This document shows, piece after piece, positions 56,041 through 64,000 of a stretch of DNA of 64,000 nt. Positions within the stretch are counted from its first letter, which is position 1. Every line of letters begins with the position of its first letter. The notes under the pieces were generated by a model that saw nothing but the letters and a program-made list of their open reading frames with translations, was not told the origin of the DNA and ran no database searches. Position numbers and translations under genes: made by a program. The stretch lies in contig JAPDRO010000008.1 of the NCBI GenBank assembly GCA_030247885.1, positions 1,196,954-1,260,953 on the forward strand, given 5' to 3'. Source of the stretch: Taxawa tesnikishii (nom. ined.) (lineage: Eukaryota; Ascomycota; Dothideomycetes; Dothideales).

Positions 56041-57252
56041 ATGGGCAACTCAGCCTCCACCACAGCAAAGGGAGCAGTAAATCAAACACCCCACCATTAT
56101 ACGCAATCAAACACCTGACCGTGCCTTGTACAGTCTTCCAGCCTCAACTCAGCAGCTTCCTCCGTCGGCTCCAACGCCGTGTCAGCCGCCAGCCAAGCAT
56201 CTGCATCTGTCGACTCTGCATCCTCATCGCTCGCAGCTCAGGCTGCTACAGCCGCCAGCTCTGGGAGCTCCTTAGTCGGTTCTGCTTCTTCGGTCGTGGG
56301 TTCCCATGCCTCCTCAGCCCTCAACTCGGGGTCGTCGGCGCTAAGCTCAGGTTCTTCGTCGATCGGCTCCAAGGCAGCGGCGTCCCTCAGCATCGCGTCT
56401 AAGGCATCTGCGTCCCTCAGTTCTAAGGCGTCTTCATCCCTCAGCTCCGCGTCGTCGGCAATGGGCGCTTCTTCTCTCAGTAGCAGTGTCTCGTCGGCGC
56501 TCGAAGCCGGATCCAAGTCTTTGAGCTCAGGCTCATCGTCTATCGGCTCCAAAGTATCTACTGCCCTCAGTGCGGGCTCTTCAGCCCTGAGCTCCGGCTC
56601 TTCGTCGTTCGGCTCGAATGCAGCCGCGGCCGCCAGTTCCGCTTCCTCGTCCCTCAGCTCCGGTGCCTCGCGTGGCGCCACAGCAGCTGCCCAGGCGACT
56701 CAGCAGGTGGCTGACCAGGTTGGAGGACGCAGCATGAGCACATACGTCGTGGGCCTCTTGGTCCTCATGGCCTTCCTCGGCGCTTTGTACTTCTTCCTCT
56801 TTTCCGACGCTTCAGCCAAGGAAGATAGGAAGCAGGGTGTCAACGCCACGGCGCAGAACCCAAAGCAGCGTGCCGATACCACAACGCAAGACTTGAAGCA
56901 GCGCGTGGACGCGACCAAGCAAGAGCTGAAGCAGCGTGTCGACGCGGTTCAATCCAACAATGGGCAGACTACGTCCTCCTCTACATCTCAGACTACTGCC
57001 ACTTATCGCCCTGTCGGCCATCAACAGGAGCAGGCAATTCCTGCACGCAACGAGTCGCTGCCCACTTCCTTTCAACCGACCGGCGCTCTGCGTGGCGATG
57101 CCGCGGACATCGCTGCCAGAGTGCTAAACGCACCTAGCACTGGAACAAGTACCGGAGGAGCAGCACCGCGTGGCAAGGCTGCGCCAGGTGGGCAGTTCCA
57201 GTACCAAGATCAGATTCCGAGCAAGTTGAACAACGCTGGCTTTGCCAAGTAA
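56041..57252 (+). CDS. Ser/Ala-rich, potentially myristoylated single-pass membrane protein
   Basis: Unrecognised family. Exons 56041-56076 and 56134-57252 form a clean 384-aa frame. The start MGNSAST fits an N-myristoylation consensus (Gly2, Ser6). Residues of about 13-190 are an irregular Ser/Ala repeat with a recurrent LSSGSSSIGSKA-type unit. One membrane helix follows (STYVVGLLVLMAFLGALYFF). The C-terminal half is soluble, with four diverged copies of a Q(D/N)LKQRVDATKQ-like unit (about residues 240-275, probably helical) and a Gly-rich tail ending NNAGFAK. It sits alone between the RIP island and the telomeric helicase. It could be a cell-surface or organelle-tethering protein; no function is claimed. 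Confidence 0.7.
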
Positions 57253-58114
57253 AGTCATTGCATGACTGGGAAAGGGAATCGAGAGCAAGTGCGACATTGG
57301 GAGTTTCTTGCCGTGAGGTGGGAGACGATCTTCTGGGACCAAGAACCTGCTTATGTCACACGAACGGGTGTCATAAGGTTTGACCAATGCGAGGAGCATT
57401 GACGAGTTATATTTAGCGACATGGAGTTAGTAGGCGACTAGCAATAGTCGAATAACATTTAACTAATAGTACATGTACACAGAATCATGTACTATTACCT
57501 GTTGACCCTAATTGCTTACCCTTAATGTTATTATTCGTAAACATTAACCTAATCTATTCTTAGAAAATAAAAATCTCGAGTTAAGTTATAAAAAATAAGT
57601 TATAAAGTAACTCTAAGAGTTAATAAAAGTAAGTCGAGTTATTCGCTTTATATAAGCCTACTCGTAGAAGTCAAACGAATGGCCACGATTCGTTTGCTTT
57701 TGCGTGGGCTATAACCCTAAGGGTTAGAGGAACGACCACGATTCGTTTGCACCTGTTGACCACGATTCGTTTGCCTTCCCGAGCCCCAACCTTCTCGAAA
57801 CCCACACACTATACTGTCATAAGGTTATTCTCTCTGCATGCCAAACACCACTCATATATATGCCATATACATGGAACATCAAGGGCGGCGGTCTTAAAAG
57901 GAAAAAGATGAGGCGCCTTGTGCATAGGCCACTCCCGCATTTTCGCAGGGCGGCCTCTCCAAACAAAGACCAGCCCTGTGTCTATGCGACGTGATCAGTA
58001 CGCTCTAAACAATTGATCCTGAGCATCACATGGATCCTTTAAATCCTTAGAAAGGTAATATAGCTATGTCTGGCCTCGCAAGTATGGCAGCCGTGAAGGC
58101 AAGCCAAGACTCAG
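57253..58114. other. Intergenic, with AT-rich patch and short repeats
   Basis: Bases about 57400-57660 are AT-rich and RIP-like. Bases 57670-57775 hold three copies of CCACGATTCGTTTGC and a 16-bp head-to-head telomere-like motif. An upstream ATG at 58066 opens an 18-codon frame that overlaps the helicase start. Confidence 0.55.
57670..57775. repeat. CCACGATTCGTTTGC repeats with TAACCCTAAGGGTTAG motif
   Basis: Direct copies of CCACGATTCGTTTGC lie near 57683, 57736 and 57760. The first is preceded by CAAACGAAT, giving an inverted CAAACGAAT/ATTCGTTTG pair. Between copies one and two, at 57712-57727, lies TAACCCTAAGGGTTAG. Confidence 0.85.
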
Positions 58115-61100
58115 ATGGATGATTTTCATCGTCTCTTCCAAGTAGTCGCCCAGCACCGCATCCTTGTTTGCATCCATTGTCAGTATGCAGTCGTACCTTC
58201 GCAGCTCGCCAAACATCTTCGTGTGCATCACAAGCGTCTCAGCTTACAACAACGGCGGGACATTATTGCCAAAGTCGGGTCTTTTACCGAACTTGCGCAA
58301 GTCGAGGCAGATGTCATCTATCCAGCAGCAACAGAGCCTCCCGTAACGGGACTTCCGGTGTACTTCGACGGCTTGAAGTGTGGCGGGAAAGATGGCGAAG
58401 GCAGGCTTTGTCCCTATATATGCCGCACTCCGCGTGGCATGCAAGATCATTGTGAGCGGCAACACGGCTGGGTCAACGGACAGAAGCGAGGCGGCGATGC
58501 TCGTTTGAAGCAGGTCCATACCCACAACAAGCTGTGGTCTTGCGACCGCGCCTGTCAGCGTTTCTTCAAGGTCGGAAGCTGGCAGAGGTACTTCGAGGTC
58601 CAAGTAGCGGACCTGGAGATTTGCGGTCGGAGGCGAGCCGGTCACCAGCGTGACTTCTTCCGGACGCAAGAAGAAGACATCCTTCAGGCAGAGCGCGACG
58701 CCGCATCTGCGGCCAACCGTGTCCGCGGATTCGACGAGCATCGTTCTACCGTGGTACCATGGCTCAGAGAGACCGGCATCGTCGACCATGTCTGCGGCGA
58801 AGAAAGACGAGATCCGAGCAGCGATCGCCGTGCCCTCGCGAGACGAAGGATGTCCTCTGCGGACGATCGTCGATGCGATGGAGGACGTGCTCAGGGAGGC
58901 GCACGGCTGGTGTTTCGACGGACCCGACTGTATGCTCACTTGGCCATGTCGCGTCGTTCTCAGTCGGTTCCAGTCGTCGCAGGTCGAGTCGATTGGGAAG
59001 GTTCGGCCGTTCGATCCTTACAAGGAGCCCGGCACGCTCAAGGTCTACTTCAAGCTGGCGTCACAGTTCCTGTCGTACCTGGAGCGAGTGGCGATCTGTG
59101 ACGAGTACCACTTCAGTGCTGACTCGGAGGAGACGATCCGGCCAGAGGACGTGATCGAACCGACGGACAAGCAAAGGGTGGTGTGGCATAACCTCCGTCG
59201 GTTAGCAGAACGGGGAGCGACGGGCACGGGTGAAGGGATCAAGGGCCAACTGAGAGATGGGCTGGTTGAGTTATGGATGCTCGTTATCCGTCACACTACC
59301 GGAGCCCGACGGTACCGCTCGCCAATAGTGAGCTTCTGCGCGATGCTAAGCATCAAGCCGTCTACGCAAGGCTGGATGGAACCCGGCAACTTCAACAGCA
59401 GTCTGTCTGCGATGATATGGGTCGCGCAGCTGCTGATCTTCTATGACTGTGCTCGCAAAGAGCGGCAGGGTGGGGAGAAACGCTCGCGCTCGTCAAGGAA
59501 TGCTGTGAGAGTTATCTGCAGCAGACGGCCGAGACGCCGATGGGGAGATACTCCGCTGGCGCCTGTTGCTGTTTCGCATCTCGAAGGACAGCGTGGGTGA
59601 TCATGAGGCCTGTTGGGACGAAAGCGAACAGGTCCTGACATACGAAGATACAGAGCTGCGTATGGACCAGATCCCCACGCTACTGCTCTCCGAATACCGT
59701 GAGTGCGAACGGCTACTGTACGACGACTTGCTGCTGGGTCAGAAGGACCTACGCCGCATGCAGTCTTGGGCGCTTAGAGATAGCGGCAACGTCGATACCG
59801 TCGGCTGGAGCTTGATCCAGCATCGTGACAACGCTCTCCTGCTGAGGGGACGGACAAAGCTCTGTTGGCCGCCGTTGAGCGTTCCGAGCAACTGTGCCGC
59901 CTTTTCCTTCAGCAAGACCGTCGATCAGCGAGCGGCTTCGTTTGGAGGGACAGTGCGCTAGCCGGCTACGAGGCAACTGTGCAGGAGTTCTTGAAACGCT
60001 TGTGTGTCCTCGTTCACATCAGTGGCGGTCAGCCCATCCGCGAAAGCGAGTTCTTCTCCATGACCTGGCGGAACACGCAACGACGACGATCCATCACACT
60101 CCGCCACGATCGTGTCATGATACATGTCAAATACCACAAAGGTCAGCAGCAGACGGGCAGGTACAAGGAAAACATCCGGTTTCTCGCCAATCCGGTGGGC
60201 GACCTGTTGCTGGATTACCTCGTCTATGTCGTGCCGCTACGACAGGTCTTTCTGCGGCAGCAATCACCAAAGGCACTGCTCTCCTCGTTCTTGTGGGAGA
60301 AAGACGGAAAGGTGTGGGGCGAAGGACGGTTGAGTCGTTGTCTGGAGGAAGCCAGTGCTCGGGCGTGCACACCCCGGCTTCACGTTTCCAACTGGCGCCA
60401 GATGAGCGTGGCCATCGTCAAGACCAAGTTTGCGAGCAACATAGGCTGCTTCGAAGTCAACGAAGACGACGAGGACGCCGAGGAGATGGAGGAGGATATC
60501 CGAGCGATGACGAGACAGCGCAACCACAAGACACGCACGGTCAACAGGGCGTATGCCAATCAGACGGGAGCGACCTTCGGCAACGTGTGGGACGGGCTGA
60601 TCCGAATGGGACTTCGCGCGTCAACGTTGTGGCAGGACTTCTGGGGAGTGGAGACGATGCTAAAAGGCAAGAAGCGAAAGAGGGACGGAGAAGAGTGTCG
60701 ACTGAAGGAACGACTTGCCAAGGGTGTCTATCGGCCCCGCAAACCGTGGTCGGCAGAGGCTCTGCTGGAAGGGCTCAGAAAGCTCTACGGCAACCAGAGA
60801 ATGATGTGGAAATCGAGGGAGCAGGAACAGACCCTCACCACGATCATGTCGTGGACGGAGCAGGTGGTGGCCATCTTGCCAACCGGAGCCGGAAAGAGCC
60901 TGTCCTTCATGTTGCCGTGTACGCTGCCTGATGCCGGGATCACCATCCTCATCGTGCCGCTCGTATCCCTTCGGGCAGACCTGCTTCGGCGGATACGGGA
61001 ACTGAACATCGCTCACCTCGAATGGTTGCCGGGAGAAAGTCGAGAAGCATCGCTGATAATCGTCAGCGTTGAGGCTGCGGCCACAACACACTTCACGAAA

Positions 61101-62542
61101 TACGCACGAAGCCTGATCGTCCAGCAGAAACTCGATCGAATCGTGATCGACGAATGCCACCTGACGGTGACTGCCGTTGACTACCGATCGAGCATCGTCG
61201 ACCTTACTGCGGTCCGCAATCTCAGGACGCAGTTTGTCTACCTGACAGCCACACTGCCTCCGTCCATGAAGAGGAGTTTGAGGAGCGCAACTACCTCTAC
61301 CGTCCGACAACCATCAGAGCATCGAGCAACCGACCCAACATATTCTACATGGTCCGCAGGGCAGACCCTCGCAAAGGCAGCCTTCTGGAGCAGAGTGCGG
61401 TCGAAGCGCAAGACGCGTGGCGCGACTCCGACCTGTTCGATCATTCCCGTGACAAGATCGTCCTATACGTCCGAACGTGTGAGGACGCGGACAGCCTGTG
61501 CCAACTGCTTGGTTGTGCTGCATACACCGCAAAGAGCGGAACGCCGGAACAGAAGAAGCTCATCGTTGATCGCTGGATCCATACCTCCGACCGCCCGTAT
61601 CTCGTTGCCACGACCGCTCTTGCCGAAGGCTTCGACCACGCTCATGTACGTCTGGTCATGAACGTAGGGAGCCGGACTCGTTGGTCACCTTCGCGCAGGA
61701 GTCGGGTCGGGCCGGCCGCGACGGGATGGAGGCGTACTCGATGGTTCTCCTGCCGGCGACGTGGCAGGCACAGCTCGAAGACGACGTCGACGTCGGTTCG
61801 GAGCAGACGGGCAGCTGCAGGGACGACGTGTCACTTCGCAAGCGACGGGACAAGCAGGCCGTGCACAAGTACTTACGAGGCGAGCAATGTTTCCGAACTT
61901 CGCTGAGCGAACACCTCGATCTCGCTCAGCACCGAAGGTGGTGCATGCCGGAAGACGTGGCTTGCGACGTCTGCAAAGCGGCTCACGAGGATCAATCGCA
62001 GCCTCGGACGCGACAAGACGGCAGACCGCCCACACCGGACTCGATCTCATCCAGCAAGAGCGGCTGCAGGCTCCTCCGAACTTGTCAACTACCGTCTGGA
62101 CCTGGCCAGCGTGCGCGGGACATGCTTGCTCTGCCGTGCGATGGACGAGGAATGGAAGCACGAGTTCTCCAAGTGTGCCCGGCGGCATGAGGTGTTTCAC
62201 GAGCGCAGTCGAGTACGGCAGCGGCACGAGACACGCGGACGAAAGTGGTTGCGTCCGTACACGAGCTGCTTCTGGTGCCTAAACCCTCAGTCCATCTGCC
62301 AAAGGGCTGAGCTCAGCAAGACCAGTAAGGAAGAAGCGTGTGAGCACGGAGACGTGGTCCTGCCGCTCTGTTACGGGATATTCGTGAGCGCCGGAGGAGC
62401 CAGATGGCTAGAGGACCACTTCCGGCGCAGATTCGCCGGGGTGGAGGATTTCTTTGACTGGTTGGGAGAGGAGACAAGATTTGGAGGCGGAATGGCGGTA
62501 CAGGGAGTCAGAGTAGCGGCAAAGGCTTTATTGTCGTTCTAA
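58115..62542 (+). CDS. Telomere-linked RecQ-type helicase with zinc-finger and tyrosine-recombinase-like regions (several apparent frameshifts)
   Basis: Subtelomeric helicase of the fungal TLH type, transcribed toward the telomere; corrected length about 1,478 aa. N-terminus: CIHCQYAVVPSQLAKHLRVHH, a Cys2-His2 motif as in OrsD/DUF3505 proteins. Middle: a region with tyrosine-recombinase landmarks (GGQPIRESEFFSMTW at 60021-60065; Lys 60138; HVSNWRQ with Arg 60396; HKTRTVNRAY with His 60525 and Tyr 60552). RecQ core: LPTGAGKS near 60880, DECH near 61150, LTATLP near 61243, QESGRAGRDG near 61697. C-terminus: Cys/His motifs (CLLCRAMDEEWKHEFSKC, CFWCLNPQSIC). Reading shifts near 58787 (two bases), 59478, 59543, 59847, 61264, 61667, 61989 and 62078; each fits missing bases, mostly one in a short run. 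It may be intact in reality or a decaying copy. Confidence 0.85.
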
Positions 62543-62582
62543 GATAGCGAGGTCAGAGACAACTAATAGCAACGACCTATAA

Positions 62583-62687
62583 GAAAAAACAGAAGAAGTA
62601 GTGAAGGAAAAAACAGAAGAAGTAGTGAAGGAAAAAACAGAAGAAGTAGTGAAGGAAAAAACAGAAGAAGTAGCGAAGGAAAAAAAT
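62583..62687 (+). repeat. 24-bp tandem repeat
   Basis: Four copies of a GAAGAAGTAGTGAAGGAAAA-type 24-bp unit just after the helicase stop. In one frame they encode an eight-residue EEVVKEKT repeat with no ATG. Confidence 0.9.
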
Positions 62688-63824
62688 AGATAATAGCTTA
62701 AGAGGTAAATACGTTAGGTCCTTACTAGCTCCGACAAGCAAGAAAGAGTCCTAACAAAAAGTAAACGCCTAATAATAAGTTAGTTAGAGTAGTTAAGAAG
62801 AAGTCTAATAGATAAGGAAAGTAACTTAGTTAAATAGACTTAAGCTAAGTTATAAAGAAGTTAAGAAAGAATCCTAAAGTATAATAAAGTTCTTCTTAAA
62901 CCTTAGGGATTATATAGGATAATATAGAACTAAGAGTTAGGGTTTAGATAAATAAGGGTAAAAAGTAAGTATATAAATGAAGAAGACGATAATCATAGAA
63001 AAGCTAAGTTTTAAAGAAAGGAACAATATTTCTCTATATAGGATTTTCAAAAAAAAAGGTAATATTTCTCTCTATAACAAGTATAATATTTTAAAGAGAA
63101 AAGATATATCTCTTAAGATAAAAAAAGATAAAAGAAAGAAAAAGAAAAACTAATAGATTTAATAGTAAAGTAAAAGAAATTAAAGTAAAATAGTGGAATA
63201 TAAAAAGAAAAAGGAGATTAGTTAAGAATAAGAAAAAAAAGTAAAAAGGAAAGTAAAGTAAGGGAGGATAATATAAAAGAAAAAGAGAAGATAATAAAAA
63301 AGAAAAGGTAATAAAAAGAGAAGGAATAAAATAAGTAAGTTAGAAAATAAGAGTTATAATAAGGAAGGAATAAAGAAAGAAAGTTTAAGTAATAGGGATA
63401 TAATAATATAGAAATAGAATAAAAGTAAAAAATAGGAAAATAAGAAGAGATAAAATAAAAGAAAGAAAAGAAATAAAAGAAAAAAGTTAAAATAAGAGAT
63501 TTATAGTAAAAGATAAGGAGTAAAGTAATAGAGATATAGTAATATAAGAATGGAATAATAAATTAGTAGAGTTAAAGTAATATTTAAAAAAGAATAAGAA
63601 AGTAATAAAAATATAGTAATAAAGTAATAAAATAATAAAGTAGTAAAGTAGTAAAGTAATAAAATAATAGAGTAATAAAATAGTAGAGTAATAGAATAGT
63701 AGAGTAATAGAGTAGTAAAGTAATAAAGTAGTAGAGTAATAAGATATAAGAAGAATAAAAGAAGTAGAGAGATAAAATAGAAAGAAAGAAATAAAGTAGA
63801 AAGAGAAAAAACATTGAAAAAGAG
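62688..63824 (+). other. Purine-biased AT-rich subtelomeric sequence
   Basis: About 1.1 kb without genes. From 63151 onward the plus strand has a single C (63812) up to the end of the window. Short GTAATA/AGTAGTAA microsatellites dominate 63595-63750; on the other strand these read as an artificial Tyr/Leu/Phe-rich frame. Confidence 0.85.
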
Positions 63825-63899
63825 AGTGAGTGAGTGAGAGTAAGAATGAGTAAGAATAAGAGTGAGTGAGTGAGTGAGTGAGTGAGTGAGTGAGTGAGT
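63825..63899 (+). repeat. GTGA tetranucleotide array adjoining the telomere
   Basis: GTGAGTGA copies at 63825-63838, an interrupted GAGTAAGAAT stretch, then about nine to ten perfect GTGA units at 63861-63899 running directly into the telomeric repeat. Confidence 0.92.
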
Positions 63900-64000
63900 G
63901 GGTTAGGGTTAGGGTTAGGGTTAGGGTTAGGGTTAGGGTTAGGGTTAGGGTTAGGGTTAGGGTTAGGGTTAGGGTTAGGGTTAGGGTTAGGGTTAGGGTT
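63900..64000 (+). repeat. Telomere, (GGGTTA)n
   Basis: About 17 perfect TTAGGG-type units reach the window end with no variants. The G-rich strand runs 5'->3' toward the end, so this is a true right chromosome terminus, not an interstitial block. Confidence 0.98.

Follow-up and report, generated by a model that had tools for sequence, protein, structure and literature searches.

A telomere-terminal element of the fungus Taxawa tesnikishii with one fixed left end and a candidate tyrosine recombinase–RecQ helicase gene

Telomere-linked helicases are known from several fungi, where the role of these telomere-associated genes or repeat families is uncertain (PMC5576322 and PMC10532341, in the parts available), and the locus described here raises the question of whether such a gene can belong to a mobile element that brings its own means of joining DNA. 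The locus lies at the end of a stretch of 64,000 nucleotides (hereafter the window; positions 1,196,954 to 1,260,953 of contig JAPDRO010000008.1, assembly GCA_030247885.1) of the dothideomycete Taxawa tesnikishii (nom. ined.), which forms the right end of contig C33 in a genome of 34 contigs and 29.4 Mb. A first-pass annotation of the window had proposed that its telomeric RecQ helicase gene could itself be a mobile element or a descendant of one, and that it holds the catalytic residues of a tyrosine recombinase. On balance, we consider it probable that the gene is part of a mobile element located at telomeres, in which a recombinase-helicase attaches the left end to DNA of chromosome ends. 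Of the two findings, the stronger is that the unit is mobile and telomere-terminal, for which the support is good; the assignment of the recombinase domain, judged by its sequence, is likely although unproven, and its fold and catalysis are predicted.

The proposal of a mobile element is strongly supported by the other copies of the unit: there are 51 copies, all with the same exact left end and each with a flank of its own. Near position 57658 the window abruptly becomes identical to other contig ends, and the identity continues to the telomere; 19 other copies compared at full length are 99.6–99.8% identical, with 10–21 gaps versus 0–4 mismatches. The 35 bases with which the element begins have 51 exact matches in the genome, always pointing outwards: 27 near left contig ends, 23 near right contig ends (6264–6374 bases away) and one at C2:872 kb. 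This last copy counts as terminal because it adjoins a scaffold gap between two telomeres (telomere, N run, telomere at C2:865180–865681, or L015 181–681), C2 being a scaffold of two chromosome ends. All 51 left ends lie about 6.2–6.4 kb from a contig end or a scaffold gap; the telomere repeats themselves were read directly in the window and in those ends that were checked, rather than in each of the 51. At least one telomere-bearing contig end (C32 left) is free of the element.

On the left, all 51 copies break off at one and the same base, where different DNA begins, and the 10-mers immediately upstream are 51 distinct ones. The unrelated flanks are AT-rich in 48 cases (GC 0.15–0.34) and richer in GC in three (0.46–0.59); some of them belong to a common repeat family, yet are cut at differing places. 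A C occupies position -1 in 20 of the 51 junctions, against a background of 0.122 (nominal p 9e-7, for a position chosen after looking), an excess that is possibly a trace of the joining reaction. The features of the element that bear on the gene, all on the plus strand, are the following.

57658..64000, plus strand: terminal element (about 6.34 kb), from the fixed left end to the telomere, with the same first base in 51 of 51 copies
58133..58468, plus strand: OrsD zinc-finger domain (PF12013; Pfam, E 7.2e-24)
59946..60660, plus strand: tyrosine-recombinase-like domain, with residues R 60039, K 60138, R 60396, H 60525 and Y 60552
60819..61271, plus strand: first half of the RecQ motor (PF00270 DEAD, E 1.5e-13), in the same frame as 59829–61661
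61439..61693, plus strand: second half of the RecQ motor (PF00271 Helicase_C, E 8.9e-7), in a different frame in the window copy
62543..63899, plus strand: AT-rich tail with no named gene, read from the sequence
63900..64000, plus strand: TTAGGG telomere repeats forming the right end of the element, read from the sequence

The order claimed beforehand, in which the residues stand between a zinc-finger region and the RecQ motor, was borne out, with OrsD upstream and the motor downstream. In the window the gene (58097–62542) is broken across several frames, and the breaks fall outside the stretch of the five residues, all of which are held without interruption by the open frame 59829–61661; in other copies (e.g., L020) an unbroken frame of 1012 amino acids covers both the recombinase-like domain and the helicase. 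The OrsD frames of the 50 full matches measure 334, 501 or 514 amino acids, none being listed above 514, and the gap between them and the recombinase-helicase frame may be a shared frame break, an intron or a consensus error; the two frames presumably encode one protein. The motor is of the RecQ type: in another copy it matches TIGR00614 (E 1.2e-35; 123.3 bits, below the curated cut-off of 219.8), and its closest relatives in the Protein Data Bank (PDB) are RecQ helicases, with human Q5 at the top.

What, then, is the domain that lies between the zinc fingers and the motor? The five residues that were named from the window, R71, K104, R190, H233 and Y242 (codons at 60039, 60138, 60396, 60525 and 60552), are all present where they had been placed, and H233 and Y242 are indeed nine residues apart. 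The superfamily is recognised by Arg, Lys, Arg, His or Trp, and Tyr in this order, with the last two nine residues apart, and this is what is found here, the spacing being that of the window. Conservation was checked in an alignment of the window with six divergent paralogues from the same genome (L029, L030, L031, L035, L050 and L051a, the first gene of locus L051), with 15–44% pairwise identity across the seven members. The paralogues had not been seen when the residues were named from the window alone, and the comparison therefore amounts to a blind test. Five of the seven rows were assembled from pieces in differing frames or with stops written as X, the Lys of L051a lies in another frame than its neighbours, and strongly decayed copies were left out.

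Both Arg, the Lys and the Tyr are present in all seven members, and the His in five. Only nine of the 277 window positions are invariant (G36, Y47, R71, K104, R117, R190, Y242, W268 and F271), and it is therefore improbable that the four named residues should be among them by chance (p ~ 5e-7 for a random choice, a value that ignores that conservation differs by residue type). In addition, E74, three residues past the first Arg, is kept in six of the seven members; known recombinases have an 'RxSE' motif, with the Glu three residues after the first Arg.

The comparison with known recombinases made use of a set of 31 proteins (XerD, lambda Int, Cre and 28 others), built from 29 of 30 integrase loci of ten bacterial genomes together with XerD, lambda Int and Cre, 31 of the 32 being retained. 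Relatives in viral contigs of XerD (2), lambda Int (80) and Cre (80) had been considered as a reference set and were discarded as too few or too alike. Local hhalign, left unguided, aligned 173 columns of the two families and placed R71, K104, R190, H233 and Y242 on XerD R148, K172, R247, H270 and Y279. The description of the domain as tyrosine-recombinase-like thus stands as regards the conservation of the named residues and the register of the profile, and lacks a significant profile match and a usable structural model. The profile score is not significant on its own scale, and probable homology is argued from the register.

The left end of the element carries repeats at which such a protein could act. 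The inverted repeat, the direct repeats and a dyad of telomere units all lie within the first 120 bases.

57672..57696, no strand: perfect inverted repeat CAAACGAAT-7 nt-ATTCGTTTG, with 9-bp arms and a 7-bp spacer, a candidate recombinase core site
57683..57697, plus strand: direct repeat 1, CCACGATTCGTTTGC, overlapping the inverted repeat
57736..57750, plus strand: direct repeat 2, CCACGATTCGTTTGC
57760..57774, plus strand: direct repeat 3, CCACGATTCGTTTGC
57709..57729, no strand: head-to-head dyad of telomere units (AACCCTAAGGGTTA)

When 100 bases were shuffled 5000 times, a perfect inverted repeat of at least 9 bp, with a spacer of up to 12, appeared by chance in 22 cases. Recombinase sites are known to contain core-type inverted repeats separated by a spacer of 6–8 bp.

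The Tyr-mediated strand exchange at chromosome ends that the first-pass annotation had suggested may be pictured as follows. The element would have a single defined end, the left one at 57658, and the telomere itself would serve as the other; its protein would unite three parts: zinc fingers of the OrsD type, a tyrosine-recombinase-like domain with the set R-K-R-H-Y but no box-II His, and a RecQ helicase. The recombinase domain, provided that it has the predicted fold and is catalytic, would bind the inverted and direct repeats of the left end and cut there with its Tyr, passing through the intermediate of such a reaction. The cut left end would be joined, without much preference for a target, to DNA that is mostly AT-rich and lies at a chromosome end or close to it; the helicase would help by opening the junction or the telomere DNA, and the telomere repeats on the right side would cap the recipient chromosome. 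Older copies would decay, and newer ones would be added outside them. A wider proposal, which we put forward as tentative and somewhat short of even chances, is that such elements form a distinct class of DNA transposons confined to chromosome ends, bounded by a recombinase site and a telomere, in which a fusion of tyrosine recombinase and RecQ helicase pastes a ready-made telomere, and that the telomere-linked helicases of fungi are the genes of elements of this kind.

A number of observations weigh against a recombinase that joins the left end to chromosome ends, and they concern both the protein and the DNA. H233 is replaced by Tyr in L030 and by Arg in L031. The order claimed by the first-pass annotation, Arg-Lys-(His)-Arg-His-Tyr, is present as R-K-(x)-R-H-Y, but the position three residues ahead of the second Arg, where the box-II His would stand, is occupied by other residues in all seven rows (S, S, V, L, Q, S and R); known tyrosine recombinases can replace this His. 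The local hhalign score of 18.44 is weak (HH-suite probability 0.6%, E 0.093), the global mode aligned 49 columns only (probability 0.15%), and a reversed-family control reached 15.95 versus the real 18.44. Among 600 column shuffles, five reached the real score and one also paired five like residues; in a smaller set of 60 shuffles the maximum, 18.2, stayed below the real score. The recombinase models of Pfam, PHROGs and NCBIfam did not match any scanned piece of the seven members at E up to 5–10 (of L030, the first half alone was scanned), and a hidden Markov model (HMM) of the 31 recombinases gave no significant score for any of the seven, the best E, calculated for seven sequences, being 0.058. 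AlphaFold2, run on the single window sequence without an alignment, produced unusable models (pLDDT 35 and 33); in these, strands follow the first Arg and a helix lies at the second, as expected, but the models are not trustworthy. As for the DNA, the 51 junctions share no target consensus beyond the C at -1, which is unusual for a site-specific recombinase, and no reaction intermediate, no copy flanked by DNA on both sides and no circular form was seen. The left end of a second family of terminal units, described below, has no repeat arrangement comparable to that of the window, and therefore counts against the general form of the idea.

Several further searches belong beside these results. 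Foldseek, run on the second AlphaFold2 model, gave no recombinase among the best 50 of 441 matches, a result that was not used, the model being unusable. An early, loose alignment, in which the pieces stood as separate rows, was poor and was set aside; its PDB search gave two unrelated matches (E >2). Relatives of the recombinase-like domain were sought in viral contigs with the paralogue alignment, with L031 and with a degenerate GQPARGTE pattern, and in the contigs of genomes with a longer pattern of the GQPARGTE type, and none was found. The patterns did match two viral and 12 genome loci by chance; two of the genome loci (L046 and L047) also match the helicase part (E 1e-8) and apparently represent an ordinary bacterial helicase. 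Related proteins are probably widespread in fungi.

The same evidence has to be read in the light of other explanations. The lack of target specificity makes host end joining a serious rival: fragments with a fixed end would be captured at broken chromosome ends, the left end being made by a nuclease that may even be the same domain, so that this idea partly overlaps with a recombinase-driven element. It fits the strictly terminal location and the missing target consensus, and the C at -1 could be a trace of such joining. It requires, on the other hand, a free element end with a defined terminus, of which none was seen, and the inverted and direct repeats of the left end suggest that a protein acts there; we regard it as rather unlikely, though well worth keeping in mind. 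A lower standing is given to the idea of a passive subtelomeric repeat like the Y' elements of yeast, spread by break-induced replication or gene conversion, in which the helicase would matter and the recombinase-like domain would be a relic or would only bind DNA. Near-identical copies are what homogenisation would give, and helicase repeats of the Y' type move between yeast telomeres (they are compared in the available part of PMC4522978). Yet spread driven by homology would carry flanks along or break variably, and the 51 junctions at one base, on unrelated flanks, therefore speak against it, while homogenisation after insertion stays compatible with the data; this explanation seems to us unlikely.

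Two doubts of another kind touch the reality of the signals. The five residues might be a chance set in an unrelated fold, as the weak hhalign score and the lack of a profile or structure match would allow, but four of the five are among the nine invariant positions out of 277, and the right register was reached without guidance, so that we hold chance to be quite improbable. The identity of the chromosome ends might also be an artefact of assembly or polishing, since the copies differ mostly by small gaps that resemble long-read errors and, in the scaffold C2, a run of N bridges two telomeres. Fifty-one different flanks all joined at one base are hard to obtain in this way, and the divergent paralogues keep the same domain order and orientation; an artefact is accordingly very improbable. 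None of these alternatives is given the weight that we assign to a mobile element with a recombinase-helicase of its own.

How does the element compare with known systems? Telomere-linked helicases (TLH) in Magnaporthe, Fusarium, Zymoseptoria and Ustilago (UTASa/b), and the telomere-associated repeat families of Colletotrichum higginsianum, share with it a multicopy RecQ-type gene beside telomeres, here represented by 51 left ends at contig ends or a telomere-bounded gap. In Colletotrichum and Ustilago the helicase is reported together with OrsD/DUF3505, and in Colletotrichum the helicase-DUF3505 repeats have been listed as three families of telomere-associated transposable elements (TEs), full-length only at subtelomeres and in one orientation (available parts of PMC5576322 and PMC10532341). 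The TE-like character is therefore not new, given that PMC5576322, in the part available, already lists such families. The available descriptions of TLH and of the Colletotrichum repeats mention no recombinase domain as part of the helicase gene and no fixed left end joined to unrelated flanks, and the word 'recombinase' is absent from the main text, as far as available, of the FoTeR paper (PMC12857005). In full-text literature, largely without subscription papers, nothing was found on a telomere-linked helicase or OrsD together with a tyrosine recombinase, and the matches for tyrosine recombinase, RecQ helicase and telomere, in the parts seen, treat other subjects. The recombinase domain and the fixed junction are thus apparently the new parts, as judged from the literature searched, and an earlier description is possible.

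Among mobile elements with tyrosine recombinases, Cryptons differ, by description only, in that the recombinase-like domain is here fused to RecQ and the right end is a telomere. Starship captains (DUF3435) are fungal tyrosine recombinases located at one end of a mobile element; their model, PF11917, was not among the matches of the window frames (E up to 5) or of the six-paralogue pieces (E up to 10), and a genome-wide search for PF11917 and PF00589 (Phage_integrase) found none, the first such search having been silent even on its controls and so proving nothing. To our knowledge, the Y' elements have no recombinase domain or fixed left junction. They resemble the element in being subtelomeric repeats that bear a helicase (PMC4522978, in the part available), and differ from it in their spread by homology with variable or homologous junctions, the 51 copies here having one exact left junction and unrelated flanks. 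The telomere-inserting nimaviruses of crustaceans are alike in tying a tyrosine recombinase to telomeres: their enzymes have a C2H2 domain, are linked with telomere-repeat insertion and show 5/7 of the key residues, and the viruses differ in being large viruses with telomere-repeat flanks, no helicase fusion being described in the available part of PMC10871703. Insertion inside telomere repeats, after the manner of nimaviruses, was considered for the left side and rejected: 0 of the 51 junctions has a telomere tract, and a single telomere unit lies within 200 bases in five of the 51 flanks.

If telomere-linked helicases are recombinase-helicase mobile elements with one defined end, the spread, near-identity and placement of these genes would share one testable explanation. 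Telomere-targeting recombinases would then have a counterpart in fungi, and mobile DNA would have a way of capping broken chromosomes; a recombinase-RecQ fusion could explain how such genes spread between telomeres.

The second family consists of a 14.3-kb unit in two copies with different flanks, whose identity is 99.5% over the whole length between a sharp left boundary and the telomere; it carries L031 in one copy and the second gene of L051 in the other, and with two copies the boundary proves little by itself. The flank of the second copy is the paralogue L051a; its last frame ends 276 bases short of the junction, without reaching a helicase, as expected if a new element had joined a shortened end. 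Decayed copies with in-frame TAG or TAA stops lie just inside several ends, and the eight near contig ends all face that end.

Some minor observations complete the description. Inside C29 two decayed copies, at 699456 and 706011, face each other, in what looks like an old end-to-end fusion. C27, a contig of 15.9 kb (L050, L083), ends in a telomere on one side and carries another divergent gene of the same kind. In the region C2:774455–783639 there are two OrsD matches, together with a divergent copy (L029) whose open frame is 645 amino acids long; the region lies some 80–90 kb from the nearest end, and the copy is among the few members away from chromosome ends. In the window itself, the gene is directly followed, at 62583–62690, by a short tandem repeat with a GAAGGAAAAAACAGAAGAAGTAGT-like unit, and just inward of the element junction, at 56119–57252, there is an open frame rich in serine and alanine.
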